Assembly (NCBI RefSeq): GCF_000337175.1
Contig: NZ_AOIJ01000038.1
Span: 74,998 to 117,657 of the forward strand
Reading direction: 5' to 3'
Source of the DNA: Natrinema gari JCM 14663
Lineage (GTDB): Archaea > Halobacteriota > Halobacteria > Halobacteriales > Natrialbaceae
DNA length: 42,660 bases
Shown here: piece after piece, positions 1-13,575 of the stretch
Layout: every line of letters starts with the position of its first letter
How positions within the stretch are numbered: the stretch's first letter is position 1
Translations under genes and position numbers: made by a program
Notes under the pieces: model-generated
What the model saw: only the letters and a program-made list of their open reading frames with translations
Databases searched by the model: none
What the model was told of the DNA's origin: nothing

Positions 1-105
1 GACCACGTCGCGCCGAAGTTCATCGAAGCCAAACAACAGGAGTTCCAGGACTACCTCGTCGACGTCTCCCAGTGGGAACTCGACCGCTACCTCGAAACCT
101 TCTGA
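1..105 (+). CDS. glnA: Glutamine synthetase, C-terminal end (5' partial)
   Basis: Only the last 34 codons lie in the window; frame 1 is open from base 1 to TGA at 103-105. The tail ends in [18 protein letters not shown], which I recognise as the C-terminus of haloarchaeal type I glutamine synthetase, the cytoplasmic ATP-dependent enzyme that makes glutamine from glutamate and ammonia. The catalytic core is outside the window, so the call rests on this tail alone. The next gene is convergent. Confidence 0.85.
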
Positions 106-154
106 GGGACCTTCGAACGACGATCCGGCTCTCGCTGCCGGCACTGCCGTCGGG

Positions 155-385
155 TTAGTTCGCGACGTACACCGAGCCGGTCCGTTCCACGTGGCCAGCG
201 CTCGAGAGCGAACGCAGGACGCTCAGGACGTTGATCTTCTTCATCGCCAGTATGTCTCCCAGTTCGTCGACCGTCGCACCCTCGGTAACATCGAGATAGA
301 TGTACACCAGCTTTGCACGGGCCGATTCGAGGTCGTCGGGAACCGGCTCGAGCTGCGTCGCGGGACGGTGCGCTTGTGAATTCAT
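155..385 (-). CDS. Small winged-helix DNA-binding protein
   Basis: A 76-residue protein with a compact winged-helix core (about residues 20-75): helix 'SARAKLVYIYLDV', a second helix 'TVDELGDILAM', a recognition helix 'KINVLSVLRSLSSAGHV' and a short wing 'VERTGSVYVAN'. This resembles MarR/TrmB-type HTH modules with no effector domain. The start is placed at the internal ATG (383-385), not at an in-frame ATG 19 codons upstream, because an AT-rich box lies at 411-420, the right distance for a leaderless transcript. It sits convergently against glnA. A role in regulating nitrogen genes would be a guess from position only; the target is unknown. Confidence 0.7.
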   Translation of the reverse strand: MNSQAHRPATQLEPVPDDLESARAKLVYIYLDVTEGATVDELGDILAMKKINVLSVLRSLSSAGHVERTGSVYVAN

Positions 386-410
386 TGTCAGCAATAGCCA
401 CCTCGTTCGT

Positions 411-420
411 GTATATAAAT
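411..420 (-). promoter_or_regulatory. TATA box of the small winged-helix gene
   Basis: On the minus strand the box reads ATTTATATAC, centred about 30 bases before the ATG at 385. This predicts a leaderless or nearly leaderless transcript and decides the start. Confidence 0.6.
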
Positions 421-551
421 CCACACGTAAGTTGGATACCAATGGATACTAGGACCTGATATGGCCCATGATACCGCATTCCTGTGAGGGCCCGAAGCCC
501 GACTCGAGCGGAACAGCGAGTTTTAGGGGCCGGCAGTTCCCAGCAGCGAGT

Positions 552-854
552 ATGACCGCGGACGAGCGACCGAGCCCCCCGCCGGAGCTAGACCGCGTTG
601 GCCACGAGGCACTCGACGAACTCGCCACCCGGGAACCCGCGGCGCTCCGTGCGGCGAGCGAGTACCTCGAAAAACTGGCGGCGTGGAAAGAGGGGGAAGA
701 CGCACCCTCCCCAGACGACGGCGAGCCGGTCCCGTCGCCCGACGGCGTCCCCGAGCGGGCGAGCGTCTCGATGACCGAGATCGCCGGTGCCACGTACTAC
801 TACTATCAGTGGCGCGAAGGCGACGAGATCAGATCGGAGACGGTCCGACGGTAG
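552..854 (+). CDS. Conserved haloarchaeal protein, DUF6788-like tail
   Basis: A 100-residue acidic protein. The N-terminal half is helical (ELDRVGHEALDELATREP, then LRAASEYLEKLAAWKEGE), the middle is a Pro/Asp/Ser-rich linker, and the tail is 'TYYYYQWREGDEIRSETV'. A tail of this type (several Tyr, WREG, RS) resembles the DUF6788 signature; the family name is my inference and its function is unknown. The start at 552 is preceded by a TTTTAG box at about 522-527, roughly 27 bases upstream; the longer in-frame extension to 468 has no promoter and non-haloarchaeal composition. It converges with the membrane-protein gene that ends at 883. Confidence 0.6.
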   Translation: MTADERPSPPPELDRVGHEALDELATREPAALRAASEYLEKLAAWKEGEDAPSPDDGEPVPSPDGVPERASVSMTEIAGATYYYYQWREGDEIRSETVRR

Positions 855-882
855 GCGACGGTCCCGCGCGACGGCGGCGTCG

Positions 883-1710
883 TTAGTCGGCCGCTGATGC
901 GGACTCGAGGACCCGTTCGAGCGCGTCCGTGACCCGGTCCGGGTGCGCCATCGTCGCCGTGGCACATCGGATCGGGAACGGCCACGGAAGCCCGCGTCTC
1001 ACCTCGAGACGGTCGGCAGTGAGATCGACCGCCCGTACCCGCGATCGAGGGATGAACTGGTAGTTGATCGTCTTCGACCGGCGGACGCACAGTCCGCTTT
1101 CGAATAGCGTGTAGGTTCGGGGTCGGCCGGCGGTGATCGCCTGTCCGATCATGGCACCGCCGAACGCGGGCAGCGGATTGATGCCCGGCTCGAGGACGAA
1201 GATGAGTGCGAACCCGACGACGAGGCAGCTGCAGCCGAGAACGAGCAAGCCCGCGCGGAGCAGTCGCCGATAGCGGGCGTCCGGCCGGGCATTCCACTCG
1301 GCTAGCACTGATTCCCGTTCGCGGAGCGCAGTGACATGGCGATTGATCGTGACGAGATAGACGACTGCGCCGCCGAGACTGAAGACGAGGAACTCCACGA
1401 ACCACTCGCGGAGCCACGGCTCAAGGCCGCGAACGCCAAGTGCCATGAGGACCGGGACGGCGAAGACGCCGACGACGATCACCGCGCCCAGGAGGGCGTC
1501 CAACCGCGTTCGGACGAGCGTCGTTGCGGGCGTGGGCTGCATGTAGCACTGGCCGGCCGCGAACAGCCCGGCACACGCACCGATCGCGACGGGCCACAGC
1601 GACGTGTACGCCGCGCCGAGGACGCGGCTCGTTGCACACAGCGTGAGTGCCCCGACGTATCCGCCGAGGACGACCGAGAAGAACGCAGCCGATGGCTTCC
1701 GGAGGGACAT
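883..1710 (-). CDS. Membrane protein with C-terminal PH-like domain
   Basis: A 275-residue integral membrane protein. Hydrophobic segments lie at about residues 7-30, 33-50, 70-92, 103-122 and 151-172, then a short pair around 'PLPAFGGAMIGQAITA'. After these, residues about 190-270 form a soluble strand-rich unit (TYTLFESGLCVRRSKTINYQ, FIPRSRVRAVDL, RLEVRRGLPWPFPIRC) ending in a helix 'DRVTDALERVLESA'. That order of strands and final helix resembles bacterial PH-like domains found after membrane segments. The start at ATG 1710 is supported by a TATA box at 1733-1745; the longer frame upstream to 1938 runs through that promoter. Function unknown. Confidence 0.65.
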   Translation of the reverse strand: MSLRKPSAAFFSVVLGGYVGALTLCATSRVLGAAYTSLWPVAIGACAGLFAAGQCYMQPTPATTLVRTRLDALLGAVIVVGVFAVPVLMALGVRGLEPWLREWFVEFLVFSLGGAVVYLVTINRHVTALRERESVLAEWNARPDARYRRLLRAGLLVLGCSCLVVGFALIFVLEPGINPLPAFGGAMIGQAITAGRPRTYTLFESGLCVRRSKTINYQFIPRSRVRAVDLTADRLEVRRGLPWPFPIRCATATMAHPDRVTDALERVLESASAAD

Positions 1711-1732
1711 GTCTCCCGTTCGACCTACTCCG

Positions 1733-1745
1733 TAAAAATATTTTT
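1733..1745 (-). promoter_or_regulatory. TATA box of the PH-like membrane protein gene
   Basis: A strongly AT-rich stretch (AAAATATTTTT) centred about 28 bases before the ATG at 1710, in otherwise GC-rich DNA. Confidence 0.6.
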
Positions 1746-1789
1746 CAATTGAACAGTTTCGATCGGACCGTAGTGATCCCGCCGTCGAA

Positions 1790-2629
1790 TCAGACCGACT
1801 CGTAGGGACCGAGCCGAGTCCCGTCGAGCAGGTACGCCTCGCCGTCGGCCAGCCCCGCGGGCAGGAACGGCGAGAGGAACGACTGCCCGGCGACGTTGAT
1901 CCACGTCCCGCCGACCAGTTCGTTGAACGCGGGGACAACGATCACCGCCGGCGGTGATTCGTCGGCACGCTCGAGCCACGACACGCCCTCGTATTCGGGC
2001 CGGTCGCGGAACGGAGCCGGGTCGAGCCGCCCTCGAAGCCACGCACGTTCGACGCGGCTGCCGCCGACCGTGTCCTCGAGTCGCACGCAGGGGTGTTCGT
2101 GGCCCAGACAGATCGCGTCGCTCTCGAGGACGGCCCGCGAGGGCCAGGTGTGGCCGTGACAGACGCCGACAGCGCCGAGGGCGACGCCAGCACCGTCGAC
2201 GACTTCGACCGTCGCATCGATGTCGGGGCTCTCGCCGAGCCATGTCTCGATCCGGCCGTCGTGGTTGCCCTTGACGACGGTGACCGCGAGGTCGCTCGGG
2301 AACGACTCGAACAGCACCTCGAGTTCGCCGCGCTCGGCCCCGCCCGGGTCGCCGATCGAGTGCATGAGGTCGCCGAGCACGACCACTCGGTCGGGGTCGG
2401 TCCGCTCGAGCAGCGCCGAGAGTCGCTCGCGGCGGTCGGGGGCCCGGCTGGGAACGTCGACGCCGCGCTCGTATCGCAGCCCGGACTCGTAGCCGGCGTG
2501 ATAGTCGGCCACGAGCAGGGCACGCTCCGGCCCGATCGCGGCGGTCGCGGCCGGCTCGCCCGGCACGGGCTCGACGCGAGTCGGCGGCGACGCCGATCCG
2601 GCCGCGGCTCGTCGGGGGTCGTCTCGCAT
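1790..2629 (-). CDS. RPA-operon calcineurin-like phosphoesterase
   Basis: A 279-residue metallophosphoesterase. All metal-site blocks are visible: DYH at 42-44, GDLMH at 86-90, GNHD at 121-124, HGHTW at 158-162 and GHEHP at 176-180, so a two-metal active site is expected. It is the last gene of rpa1-rpap1-phosphoesterase, starting 10 bases after the rpap1 stop. In Haloferax the rpa1 operon likewise carries a phosphoesterase gene with rpa1 and rpap1; this is recalled knowledge. A role trimming DNA ends or removing 3' phosphates near RPA-coated DNA is inference; the substrate is not known. The Ala/Pro-rich first 30 residues are not part of the fold, so an internal start is possible. Confidence 0.85.
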   Translation of the reverse strand: MRDDPRRAAAGSASPPTRVEPVPGEPAATAAIGPERALLVADYHAGYESGLRYERGVDVPSRAPDRRERLSALLERTDPDRVVVLGDLMHSIGDPGGAERGELEVLFESFPSDLAVTVVKGNHDGRIETWLGESPDIDATVEVVDGAGVALGAVGVCHGHTWPSRAVLESDAICLGHEHPCVRLEDTVGGSRVERAWLRGRLDPAPFRDRPEYEGVSWLERADESPPAVIVVPAFNELVGGTWINVAGQSFLSPFLPAGLADGEAYLLDGTRLGPYESV

Positions 2630-2639
2630 CGTCGCCCGA

Positions 2640-4349
2640 TCAGATCGCTTTCAGCGTCTCGTCGTCGGGCTCGTAACACTGGCCGCCCATCAGCGCGTCC
2701 TGGATGGCGTTCTCGATGTCGTCGGCGTCGGCCCCGGTGTCAGCGGCGACCCGCTCGATCACCGCCGTTCGCTTGGCACCGTCGCCGTCGTCGAGTTCCG
2801 CCATCGTCTCGACGACCTCCGCCTCGAGATCGATGTCGGCGGTCGCCTCGGTTTCGGCGTCGTCGGCGTCGTCGCTGGCATCCGGTTCCGACGCGGGCTC
2901 GCCTTCGGTCTCGAGTCCGGACGAGTCCGCGTCCGGACTCGGCTCGGCCGCCGGGTCGTCGCCGTCGCCATCCTCCGGTTCGGGAACGTCGATATCCGCC
3001 TCGCCGGGGTCCTCGACCTCGGTGCCGGTCGTGAACTCCGCACCGAACTCCTCCTCGAGTTGTTCGCGTTCCTCTTCGTCCATCTCGTACATGCTGTCGT
3101 CGACGTCACCGGCGTCAAAATCGCCGAGTTCGTCGTCGCCGTCGTCGGACGCCGACTCGGCGACATCGTTGGCTGCACCGCCGGCATTGGTCGTCGCTGT
3201 GGGCGCAGCCTCGGGGGCGTCGTCGGCGGTCGCCTCGTCACCGACCGGGTCGGAGTCGGCCGCTGGCTCGTCGCCCGTCGTTTCGGTCGTGCCGGCAGCG
3301 GTCTCCGGCTCGTCGGTCGCGTCGGTGACGGCCGGCTCGTCGGCACCGCTCGCGTCCGCCTCGTCGGGCTCGATCGCATCGGGGTCGGCCTCGGATCCGA
3401 CGTCGACCGCAGCAGTGTCGGTCCCGTCGCCGGTCGCTGTTCCGGCTGCGGAGCCCGAGTGCGCATCCTCGGGGTCGGTCGCCGCGCCGCCCTCGCCGGC
3501 CGCGACCGGTTCAGTCGGCGCCGAGTCGGCGTCGGCCCCGGGCTCGGCGGCGGCAGCCCCGAGCGACTCGGTATCGACGCCGTCGAGATCGGCGAGCGAC
3601 GCGACCGTCGCGTCGAACTCGGGACTCGTCGCGTCCGGTGCGATCTCGAGCCCGCTCACCTGATCGCGATCGCCCGCGACGACTTCGCAGGCCTCGAGCG
3701 CACAGTTCCGGAGTGCCGCGAGGTACGACGGCGTCGTTCCGTAGTGGTCCTGTGCGAGCGGAATCCCCGCCGCCAGACCGGCGTTGACGCCGGCCTCGAG
3801 CAGGGCGTCGGTCATCGCCTCCCCGTCCCCGTCTCGGAGGTCCGCGCGTGCCGCGAGTTCGGCGGCCCCGGCGTAGGTACCGACGCGGTCGATCGTCCGT
3901 TCGGCCGCGCTGACGACCCAACGGTCCCGGGTGTCGGCGTCGACCGCCGCGATGCTTTCGGGGCGGATCGAGGTGTAGATCTGGTCCGAGTCGTCGGGCT
4001 GGAAGGTTCGGGCTTTGCCCGTCACCGCGACGAACGCGGGCGGCTCGGTCTGTTCTAAGAACGCCAGTTCGTCGGGCTGGTACTGGCCGGCGTAGACGAC
4101 GAACGCGCCGGTCGGATCGACTACCCGGGCGCGGACCATCTCGTCGTTGACCGACGTGACTTCGGTGAGAGTCCCGACGACGAAGACGCGGTTGAGCCGT
4201 GCGCCGGTGGGCGTGATCACGTAGTTTGGTGCCCGTTCCTCGTCGCTCTCGGCGTAGGAAAGCGAGGCGTCGTCGTACTCGGCCGCGAAGAGCCGGTACG
4301 CGATCTCGCGGCCTGGAATCTCGTCGTCACCGTTGCCGGTCGCGCTCAT
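2640..4349 (-). CDS. rpap1: RPA-associated protein RPAP1
   Basis: A 569-residue COG3390-type protein that works with the single-strand-binding protein encoded just upstream. Residues about 1-160 hold an OB-fold-like unit (RLNRVFVVGTLTEVTSV, VVDPTGAFVVYAGQY, FVAVTGKARTFQ) followed by a helical stretch to about 250. Residues about 250-505 are a very long disordered linker made almost only of Asp, Glu, Ala, Thr and Ser. Residues about 510-569 form a small helical, winged-helix-like end with 'TAVIERVAADTGADADDIENA'. The ATG overlaps the rpa1 stop by four bases (ATGA, 4346-4349), so translation is probably coupled. The linker may vary in length between species. Confidence 0.88.
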   Translation of the reverse strand: MSATGNGDDEIPGREIAYRLFAAEYDDASLSYAESDEERAPNYVITPTGARLNRVFVVGTLTEVTSVNDEMVRARVVDPTGAFVVYAGQYQPDELAFLEQTEPPAFVAVTGKARTFQPDDSDQIYTSIRPESIAAVDADTRDRWVVSAAERTIDRVGTYAGAAELAARADLRDGDGEAMTDALLEAGVNAGLAAGIPLAQDHYGTTPSYLAALRNCALEACEVVAGDRDQVSGLEIAPDATSPEFDATVASLADLDGVDTESLGAAAAEPGADADSAPTEPVAAGEGGAATDPEDAHSGSAAGTATGDGTDTAAVDVGSEADPDAIEPDEADASGADEPAVTDATDEPETAAGTTETTGDEPAADSDPVGDEATADDAPEAAPTATTNAGGAANDVAESASDDGDDELGDFDAGDVDDSMYEMDEEEREQLEEEFGAEFTTGTEVEDPGEADIDVPEPEDGDGDDPAAEPSPDADSSGLETEGEPASEPDASDDADDAETEATADIDLEAEVVETMAELDDGDGAKRTAVIERVAADTGADADDIENAIQDALMGGQCYEPDDETLKAI

Positions 4350-5620
4350 GCGTCCACCTCCTCGAGGACGGCCGTCGCACGGGCGACCGGATCGTCGTCG
4401 CTCTCCGCGAAGCGCTCGGCGTCGAGGTTCGCGCCGTACTCGTCGACCGAGAGGTGACCGCGCACGCGGTACTCGCGGCCGACGATGCGCTCGCGGATTC
4501 GATCCGCGACGACCGATTGATCCATCGCTTCACGAGCCTGCGCTAAGGCGTCCTCGAGCGTGCCGTCGTAGACCCGTTCGGTGAGTTCGTCGTCGAGGAC
4601 GACGGTGACGGTTCCGGTGCCGTCATCGAGGATCGCCTTGACGCGGAGATCGTCGATCCCGTCGACATCGCCGTGGGTTCGGCACTGTCCCTTCTGGATG
4701 ACGCGGTAACACTCCGGACAGCGCTGAATGAGCCCGGAGCCGTCACGGACCGCAAGCAGGTTCCCGACGATTTCGACGTCGTAGATGCCGCCGGTGGCGA
4801 CGGCGTCGCCGATCGCCATCGTCGACGTGTTGCTGCCCACGTCGATCGCCCGGTCGAGCGCGGTGACTGTCGAGAACTCCGAGATGTTAACCTCGGGAAC
4901 GCCACGGAACTCCTGAACGTAGGCGTTCTCGATGCGAACCGTGCCGCCGTCCTCGATCTCGGGAGCCGGCTCCCAGTTCGTAAAGGGGAGCCGCCCGCTC
5001 TCGTCGCCGACGACACCGCTCAGGATGTCCGTTTCGCCGTCGCGACCGTCGATCGTCTTGCGCTCGCACTCGAGGACGGTGACCTCGATCGTGACCGCTC
5101 GATCGCCGGTCTCGAGGTCAGCCAGGCGTGCGTCGCCGCCGACCTCGTAGGGGACCGCGAGTTCGTCATCCTCGAACGACAGCGAGGTGCTCTCGCCGAG
5201 GTTGAGTTCGGGGTCGCCGTCCCACTCGCGGACGCCCGCGTTGCCCGCGGTGATCGTGTCGCCGGGCTCGAGGCCGAAGTCCTCCCACGCGGTGTAGTCG
5301 ATGACGCCGGTCTCGTCGGCCAGTCGGCCTTCGACGATGACGTGGTCGGAGCCCTGATACCGGATCGATCGCTCGCCCGCCGTCAGGACGACGCCCGTGA
5401 CGGTGACGTTGCCGTCATCGGGCGTGATCTCGGCGATGTCCTTCGCTGACGGCACACCGCCACCGCCGCTGGACCCGTCGCCGTACTTCCGTCGGAGGCT
5501 CTGTTTGGCCTCATCGACCGGGACGCTGTACTCCACGAGGTTCTGCAGGTCGTCTATGACCTCCTCTTTGTCAACACCGAGGTCGGAGGCGAGATCCTCG
5601 GCATGATCGTCGAGTTCCAT
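4346..5620 (-). CDS. rpa1: Replication protein A, OB-fold/zinc-finger RPA1
   Basis: A 424-residue single-stranded-DNA-binding protein for replication and repair. An N-terminal helical region (1-50) precedes three OB-like folds at about 60-150, 165-255 and 275-405. A zinc finger sits inside the third: C301, C304, C313 and H316 (CPEC...QCRTH). Length and zinc finger match haloarchaeal RPA1 rather than the triple-OB RpaC class, and the neighbours (RPAP1, phosphoesterase) match the Haloferax rpa1 operon. The start is placed at ATG 5618-5620 because a TTTTTTAAG box lies 26 bases upstream; the longer frame to 5734 runs through this promoter and has no acidic bias. Confidence 0.92.
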   Translation of the reverse strand: MELDDHAEDLASDLGVDKEEVIDDLQNLVEYSVPVDEAKQSLRRKYGDGSSGGGGVPSAKDIAEITPDDGNVTVTGVVLTAGERSIRYQGSDHVIVEGRLADETGVIDYTAWEDFGLEPGDTITAGNAGVREWDGDPELNLGESTSLSFEDDELAVPYEVGGDARLADLETGDRAVTIEVTVLECERKTIDGRDGETDILSGVVGDESGRLPFTNWEPAPEIEDGGTVRIENAYVQEFRGVPEVNISEFSTVTALDRAIDVGSNTSTMAIGDAVATGGIYDVEIVGNLLAVRDGSGLIQRCPECYRVIQKGQCRTHGDVDGIDDLRVKAILDDGTGTVTVVLDDELTERVYDGTLEDALAQAREAMDQSVVADRIRERIVGREYRVRGHLSVDEYGANLDAERFAESDDDPVARATAVLEEVDA

Positions 5621-5641
5621 CACTTGCCTTTCGCGTTGGGG

Positions 5642-5651
5642 CTTAAAAAAC
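5642..5651 (-). promoter_or_regulatory. TATA box of the rpa1 operon
   Basis: On the minus strand GTTTTTTAAG, centred 26 bases before the rpa1 ATG. It fits a leaderless transcript for rpa1-rpap1-phosphoesterase. Confidence 0.65.
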
Positions 5652-5883
5652 GTTCCCGCAGGAGGGTGGAAGTGAACACGTCGGCTGGCGGCTCGACCCG
5701 TCGGCCATCGACGGCAGGCCGCTCCGAATCGCACGCTCCGTCCGACTCGCCGACCCGCTCGGGTTCACACTGGCTCGCCCGGACAGCGCCACCCCGTCAC
5801 GCCGCCCACAGCAGTCACAACGGGGCATGCTTCGAACCGGAACCGAAAAACGCGTTCGAGAACCGCCCCCCCCCCTCGAGTAG

Positions 5884-5890
5884 CTTTATG
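5884..5890 (+). promoter_or_regulatory. TATA box of the aminotransferase gene
   Basis: CTTTATG centred about 28 bases before the ATG at 5915. The 294 bases between the two divergent start codons (5621-5914) otherwise hold only a run of ten C residues at 5866-5875. Confidence 0.55.
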
Positions 5891-5914
5891 CCCGAACGGC
5901 CCGGTACCAGCCGT

Positions 5915-6979
5915 ATGACCGACGATCGACTGCGCATGACGCCCGGTCCGACGGCAGTGCCGACTGCCGTCCGCGAACGGATGAGCGAACCGACACCCAA
6001 CCCCGACGTCGAACCCGCGTTCGTCGACTTCTATCGCGACCTCACGGGCAAACTCGAGGCGCTCTACGGCGGCGACGAGATCGCGATCCTCGGCGGCGAA
6101 GGGATCCTCGGGCTCGAGGCCGCCATCGCGTCGCTGGTCGAACCGGGCGATCGGGTGCTCTGTATCGCGAACGGGCGCTACGGCGAGGGGTTCGCCGATT
6201 TCGTCGAGCTGTACGGCGGCGACGCAGTCGTCTGTGATGTCCCGTGGCGCGACCCGCTCGATCGCACGGCCGTCGAAGCCGCACTCGCCGACAGCTCGTT
6301 CGACGTGGCGACGATGGTCCATTGCGAGACGCCGACCGGCGTCCTGAACGACATCGGGCCAGTGCTCGACGTCCTCGCGGACCACGATGTCATCAGCGTC
6401 GTCGACGCGGTCTCCTCGCTCGGCGGGGTACCGGTCCCGACCGAGCGGATCGACGTCTGTCTGGGCGCGTCACAGAAGTGTTTCAGCGCGCCGCCGGGAC
6501 TAACCGTCTGCTCGGTCAGCGACCGCGCCTGGCGGAAAATCGAGTCGTTCGAGACGGCCGGGTTCTACACCGACCTCGAGCCGTGGCGCGACGCCGCCGC
6601 CCAGGAGTGGTTCCCCTACACGCACCTCGTCTCGAACCTGTACGGACTCGACACCGCGATCGACCTGCTGCTCGAGGAGGGGCTCGAGAACGTCTTCGAA
6701 CGCCACGAGGCGGTTGCGGCCCGGTGTCGCGAGCGGGCAGCCCGGCTCGGGCTGTCGATCTATCCCGACGAGGCGCAGTCGTCGCCGACCGTGACGGCGC
6801 TCGAGGTCCCCGGTCGAGCGACGACCCTCCAACGGACGCTGGCCGAGGAGCACGACCTCGTCCTCGCGACCGGCCTCGGCGACCTCGAGGACGACGTACT
6901 CCGGATCGGCCACATGGGGCACAACGCCCGCCGCGACCGCGTCGACCGGACGATGGACGCGCTCGAGGCCGTCCTGTAG
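5915..6979 (+). CDS. PLP aminotransferase, alanine-glyoxylate/serine-pyruvate family
   Basis: A 354-residue fold-type I (class V) PLP enzyme. It starts with the family's RMTPGPT block (7-13). The cofactor site is seen at GGEGILGLEA (60-69), the PLP-nitrogen Asp164 in DAVSS, and the Schiff-base Lys188 in GASQKCFSAPPGL. The tail LRIGHMGHN is also typical. Such enzymes move amino groups between small substrates such as alanine, serine or aspartate and glyoxylate or pyruvate; the exact pair cannot be read here. The start is set by the TATA box at 5884-5890. Two short hairpins follow the stop. No operon partner: upstream is divergent, and cstA is 258 bases downstream. Confidence 0.88.
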   Translation: MTDDRLRMTPGPTAVPTAVRERMSEPTPNPDVEPAFVDFYRDLTGKLEALYGGDEIAILGGEGILGLEAAIASLVEPGDRVLCIANGRYGEGFADFVELYGGDAVVCDVPWRDPLDRTAVEAALADSSFDVATMVHCETPTGVLNDIGPVLDVLADHDVISVVDAVSSLGGVPVPTERIDVCLGASQKCFSAPPGLTVCSVSDRAWRKIESFETAGFYTDLEPWRDAAAQEWFPYTHLVSNLYGLDTAIDLLLEEGLENVFERHEAVAARCRERAARLGLSIYPDEAQSSPTVTALEVPGRATTLQRTLAEEHDLVLATGLGDLEDDVLRIGHMGHNARRDRVDRTMDALEAVL

Positions 6980-6989
6980 CCGCCGGGCA

Positions 6990-7007
6990 ACTCGTTTTTC
7001 CACGAGT
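6990..7007 (+). terminator. Hairpin with T-run after the aminotransferase gene
   Basis: ACTCG (6990-6994) pairs with CGAGT (7003-7007) around a loop holding five T residues, starting 11 bases after the TAG stop. Archaeal termination mostly needs a T-run, so this is a plausible but weak terminator. Confidence 0.4.
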
Positions 7008-7043
7008 CACACGCTGACCGGTCCGCCCGCCGCCGCGCTCGCG

Positions 7044-7078
7044 TTCGCACCGTTTTCGATCCGAGCGACGGGTGCGAA
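7044..7078. repeat. 8-bp inverted repeat upstream of cstA
   Basis: TTCGCACC (7044-7051) and GGTGCGAA (7071-7078) are perfect complements separated by 19 bases; on the minus strand a T-run adjoins the arm. It lies between the aminotransferase gene and cstA. It could be an operator or part of transcription termination; no direct evidence. Confidence 0.4.
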
Positions 7079-7120
7079 AAACCGTCTCGAGGCGTTCTCG
7101 TGTTCGTTATTCCCCGTTCG

Positions 7121-7138
7121 GCGCGTCCTCCGACGCGC
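7121..7138. repeat. 7-bp GC-rich hairpin with 4-base loop, upstream of cstA
   Basis: GCGCGTC (7121-7127), loop CTCC, GACGCGC (7132-7138). It lies 100 bases before the cstA ATG and upstream of the likely TATA element (7196-7204), so it is probably outside the cstA transcript unless a second promoter exists. Confidence 0.4.
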
Positions 7139-7237
7139 TACTCGTGTCGACAGACTATCAAAAGCGACGGCGCGTGCCGCCAATCACGACAAATAACAAT
7201 TAAGGTCACTGGTCTCCCTGTTTTGTGTGGACATCGC

Positions 7238-9076
7238 ATGACACGGATTATCTGGATTATCGCGGCAGTACTGGTGACCTTCACCGTCGGTTACGTGGGG
7301 TATTCGCGGTATCTCACGCGGTTCGTCGAACTCGACGCGGACGCCGAAACGCCGGCACACAAATACGAGGACGGACAGGAGTACGTTCCCTCGAAGAAGT
7401 CGGTTCTGTTGGGCCACCACTACTCGAGTATCGCGGGTGGGGCCCCGATCGTGGGGCCGATCACGGCGGGTGCCATCTGGGGATGGGTGCCCGCGTTGCT
7501 GTGGATCGCCCTCGGAAACCCGTTGATGGGGGCCGTCCACGACTTCGTTTCGCTGTCGGGGAGTCTCCGCCACGAGGGGAAGTCGATCGGGTACATGATC
7601 GGCGAGTACGTCGGCGAGAGCGGTAAGAACATGCTGCTGTGGTTCGCGTTCCTGACGATCATGCTGGTCGTGGCAGTGTTCGCGCTAGTCGTGGGGATCG
7701 TCTTCAACGAGTATCCGCAGGTGGTCACGGCGTCCCTGCTCTACATCGGGCTGGCGCTGGTGTTCGGGGTCTACCTCTACCAGTTCAACGGCCCGTTTCT
7801 CCCCGGGACGGTGCTGTTCGTCGCAGGGGTCTTCGCGGCCGTCTGGGTGGGGCTCCAGTATCCGTTGGCGTTGTTCGCCGGGGACTACCCGGCCGGGACG
7901 ATCGTGCTGCTCGGCGGTACCGGTGAGTGGGTACCAGGAGCGGAGGCGCTCGGTGGTAATACGGCGGGGTGGATTCCCGTCGTCATGATCTATGCCGCGG
8001 TCGCGAGTGCACTGCCCGTGTGGGTGTTGCTCCAACCGCGTGATTACCTCTCGTCGTTCCTGCTCTACACCGGCGTCGGCGGGGCGGTCGTGGCAATCAT
8101 CGCCGGAACGCTCCTCGGAACGTCGACCGACCCGCTCGTCATCGACAGTTCCATCGGCGCGTTCGAAGGGTTCTGGGGCGTCGAAGGCGCGGGATTAGCG
8201 CCGCTGTTCCCGCTTTTGTTCATTACGATCGCCTGCGGGACGATCAGCGGCTTCCACTCGCTGGTTTCCTCGGGGACGACCGCCAAACAGCTCAACAACG
8301 AGACCGACGCCCGGCTGATCGGTTACGGCGGGATGCTCGGCGAAGGGCTCCTCGCGGCAGTCGCGCTCTCGACGCTCGCGGTGGCTGGTTTTGCCGATCC
8401 CGAAGGCGGCATCGGCGCTGCGCTGCCGAACTTCGCCGAAGGCGGCGGCATGATCCTGACGAGCCTCGGCGTTCCCGTGACGGTGGGCGAGGTGTTCATG
8501 GCGCTGGTCCTCTGTAGCTTCCTGCTGACGTCGACCGACACGGCCGTCCGCCTCGGGCGGTACATGATGGAAGAAATCGTCGGTACGCCCGCGGGGCGGA
8601 CCGACACGGGACTGAACCTCAGCATCCGGTCGATCGCTCGCGGCCGATACACCAACCCGGTCGTCCAGATCGTTCCCGCGTACCTGCTGGTCGTCTCCGG
8701 CCAGTGGGTCGTCCTCTGGCAACTGTTCGGCGGTGCGAACCAGTTGCTCGCGGCGCTTGCACTGCTGACCGCGACCGTCTGGCTCGCCAACTGGGACGAC
8801 AACAAACAGCTCGTCTCCACCGGTGTGCCGATGGCGATCATGGTCACGATCACTATCCTCGGACTCTCGATCCTGGTGTTCTACGAGAACCTCTACCTAA
8901 ACCTGATTCAGGGTGGCGCGGAAACCGTCGGTGCCATGCTCTCTTCGGGGATACAGATGCTCCTCGGACTGATCCTCATCGGGCTGGCGCTCGCGCTCGT
9001 CAGGCTGGGCTACAGGAACATCCGGACCGTCCGTCGTGGCCCCGAGACGCCGGCTGCCGGCCCCGGCGACGACTAA
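7238..9076 (+). CDS. cstA: CstA-family carbon starvation / peptide transporter
   Basis: A 612-residue polytopic membrane protein with about 16 hydrophobic segments. Family blocks are clear: GHHYSSIAGGAPIVGPI near residue 70, WIALGNPLMGAVHDF near 100, ACGTISGFHSLVSSGTT in the middle and QLFGGANQLLAALAL near the end. CstA proteins take up peptides or pyruvate across the cell membrane; the cargo in haloarchaea is not settled. The start is the ATG at 7238 followed directly by a TM helix (RIIWIIAAVLVTFTVGYVGY); the in-frame extension to 7100 is basic and lacks a promoter. An AT-rich element at 7196-7204 would give a leader of about ten bases. Confidence 0.92.
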   Translation: MTRIIWIIAAVLVTFTVGYVGYSRYLTRFVELDADAETPAHKYEDGQEYVPSKKSVLLGHHYSSIAGGAPIVGPITAGAIWGWVPALLWIALGNPLMGAVHDFVSLSGSLRHEGKSIGYMIGEYVGESGKNMLLWFAFLTIMLVVAVFALVVGIVFNEYPQVVTASLLYIGLALVFGVYLYQFNGPFLPGTVLFVAGVFAAVWVGLQYPLALFAGDYPAGTIVLLGGTGEWVPGAEALGGNTAGWIPVVMIYAAVASALPVWVLLQPRDYLSSFLLYTGVGGAVVAIIAGTLLGTSTDPLVIDSSIGAFEGFWGVEGAGLAPLFPLLFITIACGTISGFHSLVSSGTTAKQLNNETDARLIGYGGMLGEGLLAAVALSTLAVAGFADPEGGIGAALPNFAEGGGMILTSLGVPVTVGEVFMALVLCSFLLTSTDTAVRLGRYMMEEIVGTPAGRTDTGLNLSIRSIARGRYTNPVVQIVPAYLLVVSGQWVVLWQLFGGANQLLAALALLTATVWLANWDDNKQLVSTGVPMAIMVTITILGLSILVFYENLYLNLIQGGAETVGAMLSSGIQMLLGLILIGLALALVRLGYRNIRTVRRGPETPAAGPGDD

Positions 9077-9143: not shown

Positions 9144-9752
9144 CTACCGCCAGAACCGCTTTGCGAACCGCGACAGCAGTCCCTCCTCTGGTTCGCTCAC
9201 GGTCTCCCAGAGGGTAAACGCCTCCACGACATCGGCGGCCTCGCTGCCGACATGCGCCTCGGACTCGGGATCGACGACGACGAGATTGATCTCGTAGTGG
9301 CCGTGATACCCGAACTTCAGTAACGTCCGGTCGCGGAACCCGGCAACGAACTCGCGAACGGCGTCGGGTATCCCGTCGGCGACGAGGACGAACGTCACAT
9401 CCGTCCCGAAGTGTTCCTCGTCGGCGACGATCAGGTCGTCCGCGAGGTCGTGACCGAGGGCGACGAGTCGCTCGAGTTCCGCGACCGTCGGCCGGGAGTC
9501 GCGTCGAACGAAGAGGTACTCCTCGGCCTCGTGGTCGGCATAACTCACTGCCGGATGGAAGAACTGTTTCTGGTTGCGCACGCGCATCTCCCCGTAGAGA
9601 GCCCATCGCTCGCCGCCGACGCGGTGGTCCTTCTCGAGGTCGTAGCTGTACAGCAATCGGTCGGACACCCGATCGAGGTACTCGTCGTCCCAGTCGGGTA
9701 CCGCCTCGCGGATCTCCGCCGGCAGTTCCGCTGGCCGTGCGTTGTCGCTCAT
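9144..9752 (-). CDS. Conserved haloarchaeal protein of unknown function
   Basis: A 202-residue soluble acidic protein with no membrane segment and no metal or nucleotide motif I can name. Residues 18-75 are mixed alpha/beta with many aromatics (DEYLDRVSDRLLYSYDLEKD, WALYGEMRVRNQKQFF, SYADHEAEEYLFV). Residues about 85-165 look like an alternating helix/strand fold (ELERLVALGHDLADDLI, DVTFVLVADGIPDAVREFV, HYEINLVVVDPE). It ends in a basic helix (LLSRFAKRFWR) that could touch membrane or nucleic acid. It converges on cstA, and I saw no clear TATA box at the expected distance from this ATG. I do not recognise its function. Confidence 0.7.
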   Translation of the reverse strand: MSDNARPAELPAEIREAVPDWDDEYLDRVSDRLLYSYDLEKDHRVGGERWALYGEMRVRNQKQFFHPAVSYADHEAEEYLFVRRDSRPTVAELERLVALGHDLADDLIVADEEHFGTDVTFVLVADGIPDAVREFVAGFRDRTLLKFGYHGHYEINLVVVDPESEAHVGSEAADVVEAFTLWETVSEPEEGLLSRFAKRFWR

Positions 9753-10971: not shown

Positions 10972-12219
10972 TCAGGGCTCCCGAATGACGGTTTCCACAC
11001 CCTGCGTCGTGGGGAACGGGCCGCCATCGAACGCCGTCGCCCACTCCTCGTCGGTGACGAGTGCATCCTCGAGTGCCGCCCGGAGCGCTCCCTCGTCGTA
11101 GTCGGTGCCGATGACCACGAGTTCCGTCCGCCGGTCGCCGTACTCGTCGTGCCACTCGAGGTCGGGCCGGTTCGACCGATACATGTCGCGTTCGACCTCG
11201 GGCAGGCTCGCGATCCAGGGCCCCTGTGCGGTGGCCCTGACCGATGGCCCAGCCTGAGCGATCGAGAGTCGCATCTCGGTGCCGGCGAGCCAGACGGTCC
11301 CCTTCGAGCGGACGATCGATCGCGGCAGGGTCCGGAGGACGGAGGCGAACCGTTCCGGGTGGAACGGCCGGCGGGATCGGTAGACGAACGACGAGACGCC
11401 GTACACGTCATCGGGGTGGTGATGATCGTGGCGCTCCCCCGTCTCGGCCCGCTGGCCGTCGTGAGCGCCGTGCTCGCTCTCGTTATGGTCGTGCTCGTCG
11501 GCCGCCTCGAGCGCTCGCTGCCAGCCCGGCCGATCGGTCACGCGCCCGGAACCGAACAGGTCGGCACCGAGCAGGCGGTCGGGATCGACCGCCGAGAACA
11601 CCGTCGGGATCGTCTCGGCCTCGGGCTGGAGCGCGGAAACGAGGTCCTCGGCCGTCGCGAGTTCGGCATCGGAACACAGATCGGCCTTGTTGAGCAAGAC
11701 GAGGTTCGAAACCTCGACCTGTTCGACGAGCAGATCCGAGAGCGGCCGGTCGCCCTCGTCCCCTCGCCGCTTCGGCCGTTCCTCGTCCGCGAAGGCGTCG
11801 AGGAACGCGGGCGTATCGAGGACGGTCACGAGCGTATCGACGTCGTAGAGCGCCGCGACGCGGGACTCGGTGGTGAACAGCCGGGCTACGGGCGCGGGCT
11901 CGGAGATCCCGGACGACTCGACGACGAGGTGATCGAACGACCGATCCCGAGCCAGCCTGCCCACGGCGGTCTCGAGGTCGTCCTGCAGTTCACAGCAGAT
12001 ACAGCCGTTCGAGAGTTCCGCGACACCGTCATCGATTTCGAGTTCCGAGCCCTCGGCGACGAGTTCGGCGTCGACGTTGACGTCGCCCATGTCGTTGACC
12101 AGCACCGCCAGCGTCCGGTCGGCACTCGAGAGCAGGTGATTGAGCAGCGTCGTCTTGCCGGCACCCAGGCTCCCCGAAAGGATCGTCACCGGGATCGTCC
12201 CGTCCGTATCCGTCTTCAT
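10972..12219 (-). CDS. CobW/COG0523-family GTPase, metal chaperone
   Basis: A 415-residue G3E P-loop GTPase. The P-loop is GSLGAGKTT (16-24), the metal-binding CICC is at 73-76 (NGCICCELQDDL), ESSG at 101-104 and NKAD at 177-180. A His-rich loop lies at 243-268 (DEHDHNESEHGAHDG, then RHDHHHPDD), and a CobW C-terminal domain follows from about 274 (YGVSSFVYRSRRPFHPERF). COG0523 proteins deliver zinc, cobalt or other metals to client enzymes using GTP hydrolysis; the His loop points to zinc or cobalt/nickel, but the metal is inference. The start is ATG 12219, backed by a CTTTCAAGG box at 12242-12250; the 25-codon extension crosses that box. Confidence 0.87.
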   Translation of the reverse strand: MKTDTDGTIPVTILSGSLGAGKTTLLNHLLSSADRTLAVLVNDMGDVNVDAELVAEGSELEIDDGVAELSNGCICCELQDDLETAVGRLARDRSFDHLVVESSGISEPAPVARLFTTESRVAALYDVDTLVTVLDTPAFLDAFADEERPKRRGDEGDRPLSDLLVEQVEVSNLVLLNKADLCSDAELATAEDLVSALQPEAETIPTVFSAVDPDRLLGADLFGSGRVTDRPGWQRALEAADEHDHNESEHGAHDGQRAETGERHDHHHPDDVYGVSSFVYRSRRPFHPERFASVLRTLPRSIVRSKGTVWLAGTEMRLSIAQAGPSVRATAQGPWIASLPEVERDMYRSNRPDLEWHDEYGDRRTELVVIGTDYDEGALRAALEDALVTDEEWATAFDGGPFPTTQGVETVIREP

Positions 12220-12241
12220 ACCGAGTACTGGGATCGGAGCG

Positions 12242-12292: not shown

Positions 12293-12589
12293 ATGGATCT
12301 GGCCGATCGGATCGACGCGTTTCGCGAGCGACTCGACGAGTGGCTGCGGGGCCTCTATCACGGCATGATCTCGCATCCGGCATACGAGAAGATCGAGAAG
12401 GAAGCCGAAGACACCGAGGACGCGTTCGTGCTGGCGTGTTTCCCGGACGCGTTCGGCATCCCGTCGCCGGTGTCCTACTACACCGCGGAACTGCTCCCCT
12501 ACCTCGAAGACGAGTTTGAATCGTGGGAGCGGCGGCTGTGGGACCGCGGAACGTACCTCGAACGGAAAGGCCAGCAGTATCACTTCTGA
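12293..12589 (+). CDS. Conserved 98-residue protein, translationally coupled to Get3
   Basis: A 98-residue soluble protein, helical and aromatic-rich: DRIDAFRERLDEWLRGLYHG (4-23), HPAYEKIEKEAEDTEDAFVL (28-47), FPDAFGIPSPVSYYTAELLP (50-69), then a helix with WERRLWDRGTY. No metal, nucleotide or membrane motif is visible. Its TGA stop (12587-12589) overlaps the ATG of the Get3-like ATPase (TGATG), so the two are made together. This suggests a partner or adaptor of the ATPase; that is inference from gene order. The start is supported by a TATA box at 12263-12270. I do not know a named family. Confidence 0.75.
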   Translation: MDLADRIDAFRERLDEWLRGLYHGMISHPAYEKIEKEAEDTEDAFVLACFPDAFGIPSPVSYYTAELLPYLEDEFESWERRLWDRGTYLERKGQQYHF

Positions 12590-13575
12590 TGGAGCCGTTC
12601 GTCTTCTTCGGCGGCAAGGGCGGTGTCGGCAAGACGACCGTCTCGTGTGCGTACGCGCTCCGCTGTGCGCGCGACGGCCAGCGAACCCTCGTCGTCTCGA
12701 CCGACCCGGCCCACTCCGTCACCGACGTGTTCGACCAGCCGTTCGACGACTCCCCGCGATCGGTCGACGGGATCGACGGACTCGACGCGGTGGAGATCGA
12801 TCCCGAAGACGAGGTCACTCGCCACCTAGACGAGCTCCGACAGGACCTCTCCGAGCAGGTGTCGGCGTCGATGGTCAACGAGATCAACCGCCAACTCGAG
12901 ATGGCACACGGAACCCCCGGGGCCTACGAGTCGGCGCTGTTCGACCGGTTCGTCGACGTAATGCGGACCTCGGAGCCGTACGACCGCGTCGTCTTCGATA
13001 CCTCGCCGACGGGGAGTACGCTCCGACTACTCGGTCTCCCCGACCTGCTCGAGGGGTGGATCGACCGACTGATCCACAAGCGACGAACGAGCATCGACCT
13101 CTTCGAGAAGGCCGCCGTCGGGAACACCGAACCGCGCCGCGTGATGGCGGGTGATCCGGTCCTCGCGCGCCTGCAAGAGCGCAAGGAGTTCTTCGAGTTC
13201 GCCGGTTCGGCGCTGCACGACGACGCCGCCTTCTTCCTGGTCTTGAACCCGGACGAACTCTCGTTGAACGAGACTGAACGGGCGATCGCCACCCTTCGGG
13301 AGGAAGACCTCGCGGTCCGCGGTCTCGTCGCCAACAAACTCACGCCGTCGCCCGACCCCGACGAGGACGGCCGCGGCGCACGCTACCTCCGCGACCGCGT
13401 CGAGACGGAAGCGGCCCGTCTCGAGACCATCCGATCGGAGTTCGACCCGCCACTGGTCGCCGAGATCGGCTGGCGGAGTGCGGAGGTCACGGGCGATCTC
13501 CTGTCCGATGTCGCCGACAACCTCGACATCGAGACGGCCGCCGAGCCGCCGACGCACGTCTCCAGTGGACAGTGA
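12589..13575 (+). CDS. get3: ArsA/Get3-family ATPase
   Basis: A 328-residue single-domain P-loop ATPase. The deviant Walker A is GGKGGVGKTT (8-17), switch I is STDPAHSVTDVF (about 40-51), switch II is FDTSPTGSTLRLL, and the A-loop region is NKLTPSPDPDE. Get3 homologues bind hydrophobic tail anchors and deliver them to the membrane; ArsA relatives drive arsenite export. No arsenite Cys triad is present, no second ATPase half, and no CxxC dimer motif, which fits archaeal Get3-like proteins. Start by TGATG overlap with the preceding gene; the longer frame from 12523 lies inside that gene. Confidence 0.88.
   Translation: MEPFVFFGGKGGVGKTTVSCAYALRCARDGQRTLVVSTDPAHSVTDVFDQPFDDSPRSVDGIDGLDAVEIDPEDEVTRHLDELRQDLSEQVSASMVNEINRQLEMAHGTPGAYESALFDRFVDVMRTSEPYDRVVFDTSPTGSTLRLLGLPDLLEGWIDRLIHKRRTSIDLFEKAAVGNTEPRRVMAGDPVLARLQERKEFFEFAGSALHDDAAFFLVLNPDELSLNETERAIATLREEDLAVRGLVANKLTPSPDPDEDGRGARYLRDRVETEAARLETIRSEFDPPLVAEIGWRSAEVTGDLLSDVADNLDIETAAEPPTHVSSGQ

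Follow-up and report, generated by a model that had tools for sequence, protein, structure and literature searches.

Genes at the locus

The window (the whole stretch of DNA analyzed here, 42,660 nucleotides of a Natrinema gari JCM 14663 contig) carries on its forward strand a small gene for a 98-residue protein (positions 12293 to 12589) followed by a gene for a single-domain ATPase of the ArsA/Get3 fold (12589 to 13575, ATG at 12589; 328 residues with P-loop, DPAH and DTSPTG motifs). The stop of the first and the start of the second share the letters TGATG, a one-base overlap; this coupling of a 98-residue gene to a Get3/ArsA ATPase had been the starting point of the first-pass annotation, and both open reading frames were confirmed at these positions. 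Upstream on the same strand lies cstA (7238 to 9076; PF02554, 430 bits), encoding a 612-residue member of the carbon-starvation or pyruvate/peptide transporter family. It ends ∼3.2 kb before the small gene, with other genes between, and does not form one operon with the pair. Two genes are on the reverse strand: p202 (a name coined here; 9144 to 9752), convergent with cstA and encoding 202 residues without a family match, and a ZigA-like CobW/COG0523 GTPase gene (10972 to 12222; NF038288, 333 bits against a cutoff of 600), divergent from the small gene, with an inferred start at position 12222 (at its longest, the open reading frame begins at 12294).

The small protein is related to bacterial cory-CC-star proteins

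The small gene was found in 224 of the 292 genomes of the haloarchaeal class. Comparison of the window copy with five relatives gave 6/2/32 to 14/13/41 differences at codon positions 1/2/3 (98 codons), and this concentration at third positions indicates a true gene under selection at the protein level. Its only informative family match was to cory-CC-star in NCBIfam (NF041419; E = 5 × 10−15, 55 bits), below the cutoff of 80 bits, which none of 196 genomes of the phylum reached. Alignment to a Cytobacillus cory-CC-star protein gave 44% identity over 62 residues, and F, GxPxP and ELxP were invariant in seven of seven diverse sequences, marking a homologous helical core. These alignments make it a homologue of bacterial cory-CC-star/CstX, with which it shares the core and the same two neighbors, whereas it scores below the family cutoff and ends in HF instead of CC; it is called CstX below. 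No Pfam family matched convincingly (lowest E = 0.035 with the window protein and 0.025 with any of 29 members), no sequence relative was found among solved structures (best E = 0.036), and Foldseek with the predicted model gave no match at E ≤ 0.001. The model is all-helical, with four helices at moderate confidence (pLDDT 75) and a disordered tail as its least confident part (pLDDT < 50). No membrane span was predicted in any of 197 loci, in a search for a 19-residue stretch above 1.6 on the Kyte-Doolittle scale, taken as the membrane-span cutoff; the bacterial loci among them include the 80 top-ranked of at least 525 relatives. A viral origin of the small gene was considered and dropped, since scanning of viral contigs found no close relatives of the protein.

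Haloarchaeal counts refer to 114 loci from 96 genomes (18 cut twice; window included), excluding one contig that ends inside the small gene (L104) and three further loci (L105, L106 and L107). At L105 (genome G058, positions 1 to 8000) the module is broken up, the small gene and the ATPase gene each into two pieces and cstA into three, and looks like a decaying duplicate copy. L106 (G256) holds a 28% small-gene match (E = 5 × 10−4) that has neither a cstA nor an ATPase match in its vicinity. At L107 (G263) a second small gene, its product 60% identical to the window protein, is followed by cstA with no ATPase gene within 10 kb. The one-base overlap seen in the window was scored in 60 of the 114 loci, a count biased toward overlap because scoring takes the start codon nearest the small-gene stop. 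The neighborhood survey proposed in the first-pass annotation found the pairing with the ATPase gene kept across haloarchaea; a small gene lying mostly away from get3 was not what we saw.

The end of the protein divides by lineage. A His was found among the last three residues in all 114 haloarchaeal loci (the window protein ends in YHF), and Cys in none of them, whereas CC ends the protein in 83 of 83 bacterial loci, a count inclined toward CC, since its 80 Bacilli-type loci were picked from at least 525 relatives as those most similar to a query that itself ends in CC. This split between bacterial CC and haloarchaeal His tails is new here.

The ATPase combines a predicted Get3 fold with the lack of two Get3 hallmarks

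The window ATPase matched PF02374 (231 bits) and TIGR00345 (239 bits), both above cutoff, and scored far below the cutoffs of the models for two-domain arsenite-pump ArsA (NF041417, 162 bits against 800; TIGR04291, 136 against 650). It has just two cysteines, at residues 20 and 26, and hence lacks the arsenite cysteines, with no counterpart of E. coli ArsA C113, C172 or C422; CxxC was found in none of the CstX-linked ATPases at 114 haloarchaeal and 83 bacterial loci (80 of the latter being the top-ranked among at least 525 relatives). The reported lack of both a zinc CxxC and an arsenite Cys site is thereby confirmed and extended beyond the window. P-loop and DPAH motifs are present in 114 of 114 haloarchaeal ATPases and the switch II pattern in 103 of them, the window protein included. 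In a tree of 45 ATPases, drawn from the midpoint, with some long branches and without L246 and L250 (no usable open reading frame), the CstX-linked proteins grouped together whether they came from the class, from three other archaea or from bacteria (34 rows, support 98/93), and the remaining 11 rows include all eight CxxC proteins. The CstX-linked clade is thus separate from the CxxC Get3 proteins that were included.

The predicted structure (pLDDT 84) was closest to archaeal TRC40/Get3 of M. thermautotrophicus (3zq6; Z = 30.1, rmsd 2.6, 280 residues aligned). The region that forms the hydrophobic, Met-rich client-binding insert of Get3 was compared by a sequence proxy, the 32 residues after the DTxPTG...LP motif, which scored 37 of the 45 tree rows (8 lacked the motif). 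Mean hydropathy was −0.91 in haloarchaea (16 rows) and −0.79 in bacteria (11 rows), against 0.03 in CxxC proteins (7 rows), with on average 0.6, 1.8 and 3.9 Met, respectively. The groups are less cleanly separated than these means suggest, since the three archaea outside the class averaged −0.37 with 0.7 Met, two of them being near neutral (−0.07 and −0.15), and a CxxC paralogue in the Natrinema genome itself (CPRC) has only one Met in the region. The window ATPase thus shares its predicted fold, its P-loop and its switch motifs with Get3/TRC40 while lacking two Get3 hallmarks, CxxC and the Met-rich hydrophobic insert, and it differs further in being linked to a transporter gene.

The same genome encodes two more single-domain ArsA/Get3 proteins, one with CPRC and one, Met-rich, with CAFC; their genes are at 105242 to 106282 of contig C33 (the Met-rich one) and 112291 to 113277 of contig C51. 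The C33 protein is the best candidate for the true Get3 of this organism. Both CxxC paralogues are better Get3 candidates than the window ATPase, whose gene is probably not the archaeal Get3, although it is easily taken for it in annotation.

The pair is inherited with CstA

Across the 292 genomes of the class, an ATPase orthologue (E ≤ 1 × 10−70) was present in 224 and CstA (PF02554) in 226. The small-gene and ATPase genome sets are identical, and the CstA set consists of the same genomes plus two with CstA and no pair, G128 and G267 (Fisher P = 7 × 10−64, a statistic that ignores relatedness among genomes). At least six genera (g2, g5, g9, g14, g26 and g27) hold both states, and in these the three genes switch together (20 listed of the 68 genomes lacking the pair); because pair-less genomes share genera with pair-bearing ones, the genes were gained or lost together more than once. 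This near-perfect co-occurrence of small gene, ATPase and CstA is new here.

Where present, the genes are also mostly neighbors. Among 54 longer haloarchaeal loci (one per genome, long enough for neighbors to be inspected), cstA was on the strand of the pair in all 54, downstream in 52 and upstream in 2, and started <1.5 kb after the ATPase gene in 50. At L097 (G264), ATPase homology covers residues 1 to 189 only before cstA begins, and this ATPase may be truncated. Outside the class, three archaea (G300, G425 and G449) have the small gene next to the ATPase gene, with cstA inside the 6.5 to 10.3 kb that was inspected. Three annotated bacterial plasmids show the order carbon starvation protein A, cory-CC-star protein, ArsA family ATPase, and the order cstA, small gene, ATPase gene was found in 81 of 83 bacterial loci (80 of the 83 top-ranked among at least 525 relatives), the contigs of the other two (L176 and L217) ending at the expected cstA position. 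Two contigs titled Pseudomonas sp. ISL-84 (L221) and Chryseobacterium sp. ISL-80 (L222) carry modules close to those of Bacillaceae; these assemblies are perhaps mislabeled or contaminated. The three genes are, in sum, present or absent together and mostly side by side on one strand, and the pair very probably belongs to CstA.

These patterns bear directly on the function suggested in the first-pass annotation, that the small protein serves a Get3-like ATPase, as adaptor or lid, in the targeting of tail-anchored proteins. An adaptor was a fair guess, the partner being strictly co-inherited (identical sets of 224 of 292 genomes). The Get3 fold and the obligate small partner speak for targeting, and the missing CxxC alone would not exclude it, as Arabidopsis Get3a lacks it according to the available text of PMC10248533, where the motif is not required in every Get3. 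The targeting role itself fared badly: the pair travels with cstA in archaea and bacteria, the insert stretch is charged and Met-poor, CxxC paralogues are encoded elsewhere in the genome, and absence of the pair from 68 of 292 genomes would be odd for a general targeting pathway. We regard tail-anchored targeting as highly improbable.

Neighboring genes

Beyond the trio, p202 is encoded on the other strand, downstream of cstA, in 48 of the 54 loci, and it keeps to cstA where that gene has been relocated, the window being one such case. It was found in all 224 genomes that carry the pair, in G128 and, as a marginal match, in G069 (E = 3 × 10−4); it is missing from G267 and is present yet unlinked in G029, G141 and G145. 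Searches of Pfam and NCBIfam gave no match and those of the PDB none that was convincing. The almost perfect co-inheritance of p202 with CstA is new here, and p202 is possibly a further part of the CstA system. The available text of PMC2963123 describes CstY (∼210 residues, a single span) from five archaea.

A CobW match occurred within ∼5 kb in 35 of the 54 loci and was directly divergent (<400 bp) in 26, so it is near the pair in many genomes and not in all, and its membership of the system is uncertain. This neighbor and the tails of CstX raise the idea of a metal-linked regulator, in which the CstX tail would bind a metal loaded or sensed by the ATPase and the CobW GTPase. The constancy of the tails (CC in 83 of 83 bacterial loci, 80 of them ranked highest among at least 525 relatives; His in 114 of 114 haloarchaeal ones) and the nearby ZigA-like gene fit this idea, as does E. 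coli btsT-yjiX-yjiA, where a P-loop GTPase again accompanies a CstA-family transporter and a small protein ending in CC. However, the CobW match is absent within ∼5 kb in 19 of the 54 loci, and the site is putative, in the part of the CstX model with least confidence. Metal-linked regulation is therefore an improbable reading, if a better one than tail-anchored targeting.

CstX and the ATPase as probable accessory parts of a CstA transporter

The linkage of CstA, CstX and ArsA was already known, and was proposed in 2010. In its available text, PMC2963123 (Castillo and Saier) describes the trio, haloarchaea included, finding CstA together with an ArsA homologue in 26 cases (24 with CstX), trees that co-evolve and an ArsA cluster (17) holding four haloarchaea, and proposes that CstX couples CstA to ArsA-type ATP hydrolysis. 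As far as that text goes, the genes in the window resemble those operons in their single-domain ArsA (∼330 residues), ∼90-residue partner, linked cstA and lack of arsenite cysteines. They differ in that the window cstA is upstream and apart from the pair, and in that CstX, stated there to have a single membrane span, has no predicted span in 197 loci (80 of the bacterial ones top-ranked among at least 525 relatives). It was the only paper found in our literature search with both CstX and CstA; the search found no bench test of the pair or of its CstA linkage and no paper on “cory-CC-star.”

We favor, at a probability of about 0.6, a reading in which CstX and the ATPase are accessory parts of a CstA-family nutrient transporter, the nucleotide state of the ATPase being passed on via CstX. 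The single-domain ATPase would work as a homodimer, its nucleotide state would be relayed through CstX to CstA in the membrane, and uptake of pyruvate or peptides would thereby be gated or energized when carbon is scarce. Support comes from the shared set of 224 genomes, joint switching within genera, same-strand linkage in haloarchaea, the trios of bacteria and of three other archaea and the ATPase tree, and from published work through the 2010 coupling proposal and through E. coli, where pyruvate uptake fell to 13% of wild type without cstA and 20% without ybdD, the small gene next to cstA (PMC5847655, available text, whose authors allow for indirect effects in these deletions). Against it stand CstA without the pair (G128, G267 and six controls), the ATPase-less L107 and the position of the window cstA outside the operon. 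No NF041419 match was found in six of seven named control genomes that have CstA; together with the other genomes that have CstA without the pair and with CstA-supported uptake in E. coli, this makes a gate or regulator likelier than an obligatory motor or energy source.

The main rival to gating is a CstA-specific chaperone, in which the Get3-like ATPase folds, inserts or assembles one client, CstA (or CstX), with CstX as adaptor. It draws on the same genomic linkage to cstA and on the predicted Get3/TRC40 fold. However, CstA has many membrane spans and is no tail-anchored protein; the stretch that binds clients in Get3 is charged here (−0.91 and −0.79 against 0.03); and E. coli has CstA yet lacks a match to NF041419 and a strong one to PF02374. 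We consider a dedicated chaperone unlikely, while giving it more credence than metal-linked regulation.

ArsA/Get3 ATPases have been studied as arsenite pumps or as factors that target membrane proteins. A widespread branch inherited with a nutrient transporter would give the fold a further job, as proposed in 2010. In E. coli, btsT is followed by yjiX and yjiA, and both BtsT-YjiX-YjiA and CstA-YbdD combine a CstA-family transporter with a small protein ending in GxRCC, as does bacterial CstX; a P-loop GTPase gene (yjiA) adjoins btsT much as a CobW GTPase gene adjoins the window pair. YjiA is a GTPase of the CobW kind and not ArsA-like. YbdD and YjiX, unlike CstX, belong to PF04328, and homology of CstX to them found no support (hhalign probability 5.8%, only the last residues aligned), in what was a weak test with two YbdD-type sequences. 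A tentative and rather doubtful extension is that CstA-family transporters twice gained a unit of small adaptor plus P-loop NTPase, once in archaea and many bacteria, where CstX goes with a Get3-fold ATPase, and once in E. coli, where YjiX goes with a CobW-type GTPase, CstX and YjiX not being detectably related. The shared GxRCC end would have become the His tail in haloarchaea, and p202 would be an added subunit. If so, the Get3-type ATPase would serve as an ATP-driven gate on a secondary transporter.

The available text of PMC6104027 reports that a ribosome-associated RNA of Haloferax volcanii holds down CstA translation. The control genome of this species holds both CstA and a cory-CC-star-like gene, and the sharp joint presence and absence of the genes, together with a genetic model that carries them, makes the haloarchaeal system well suited to testing.
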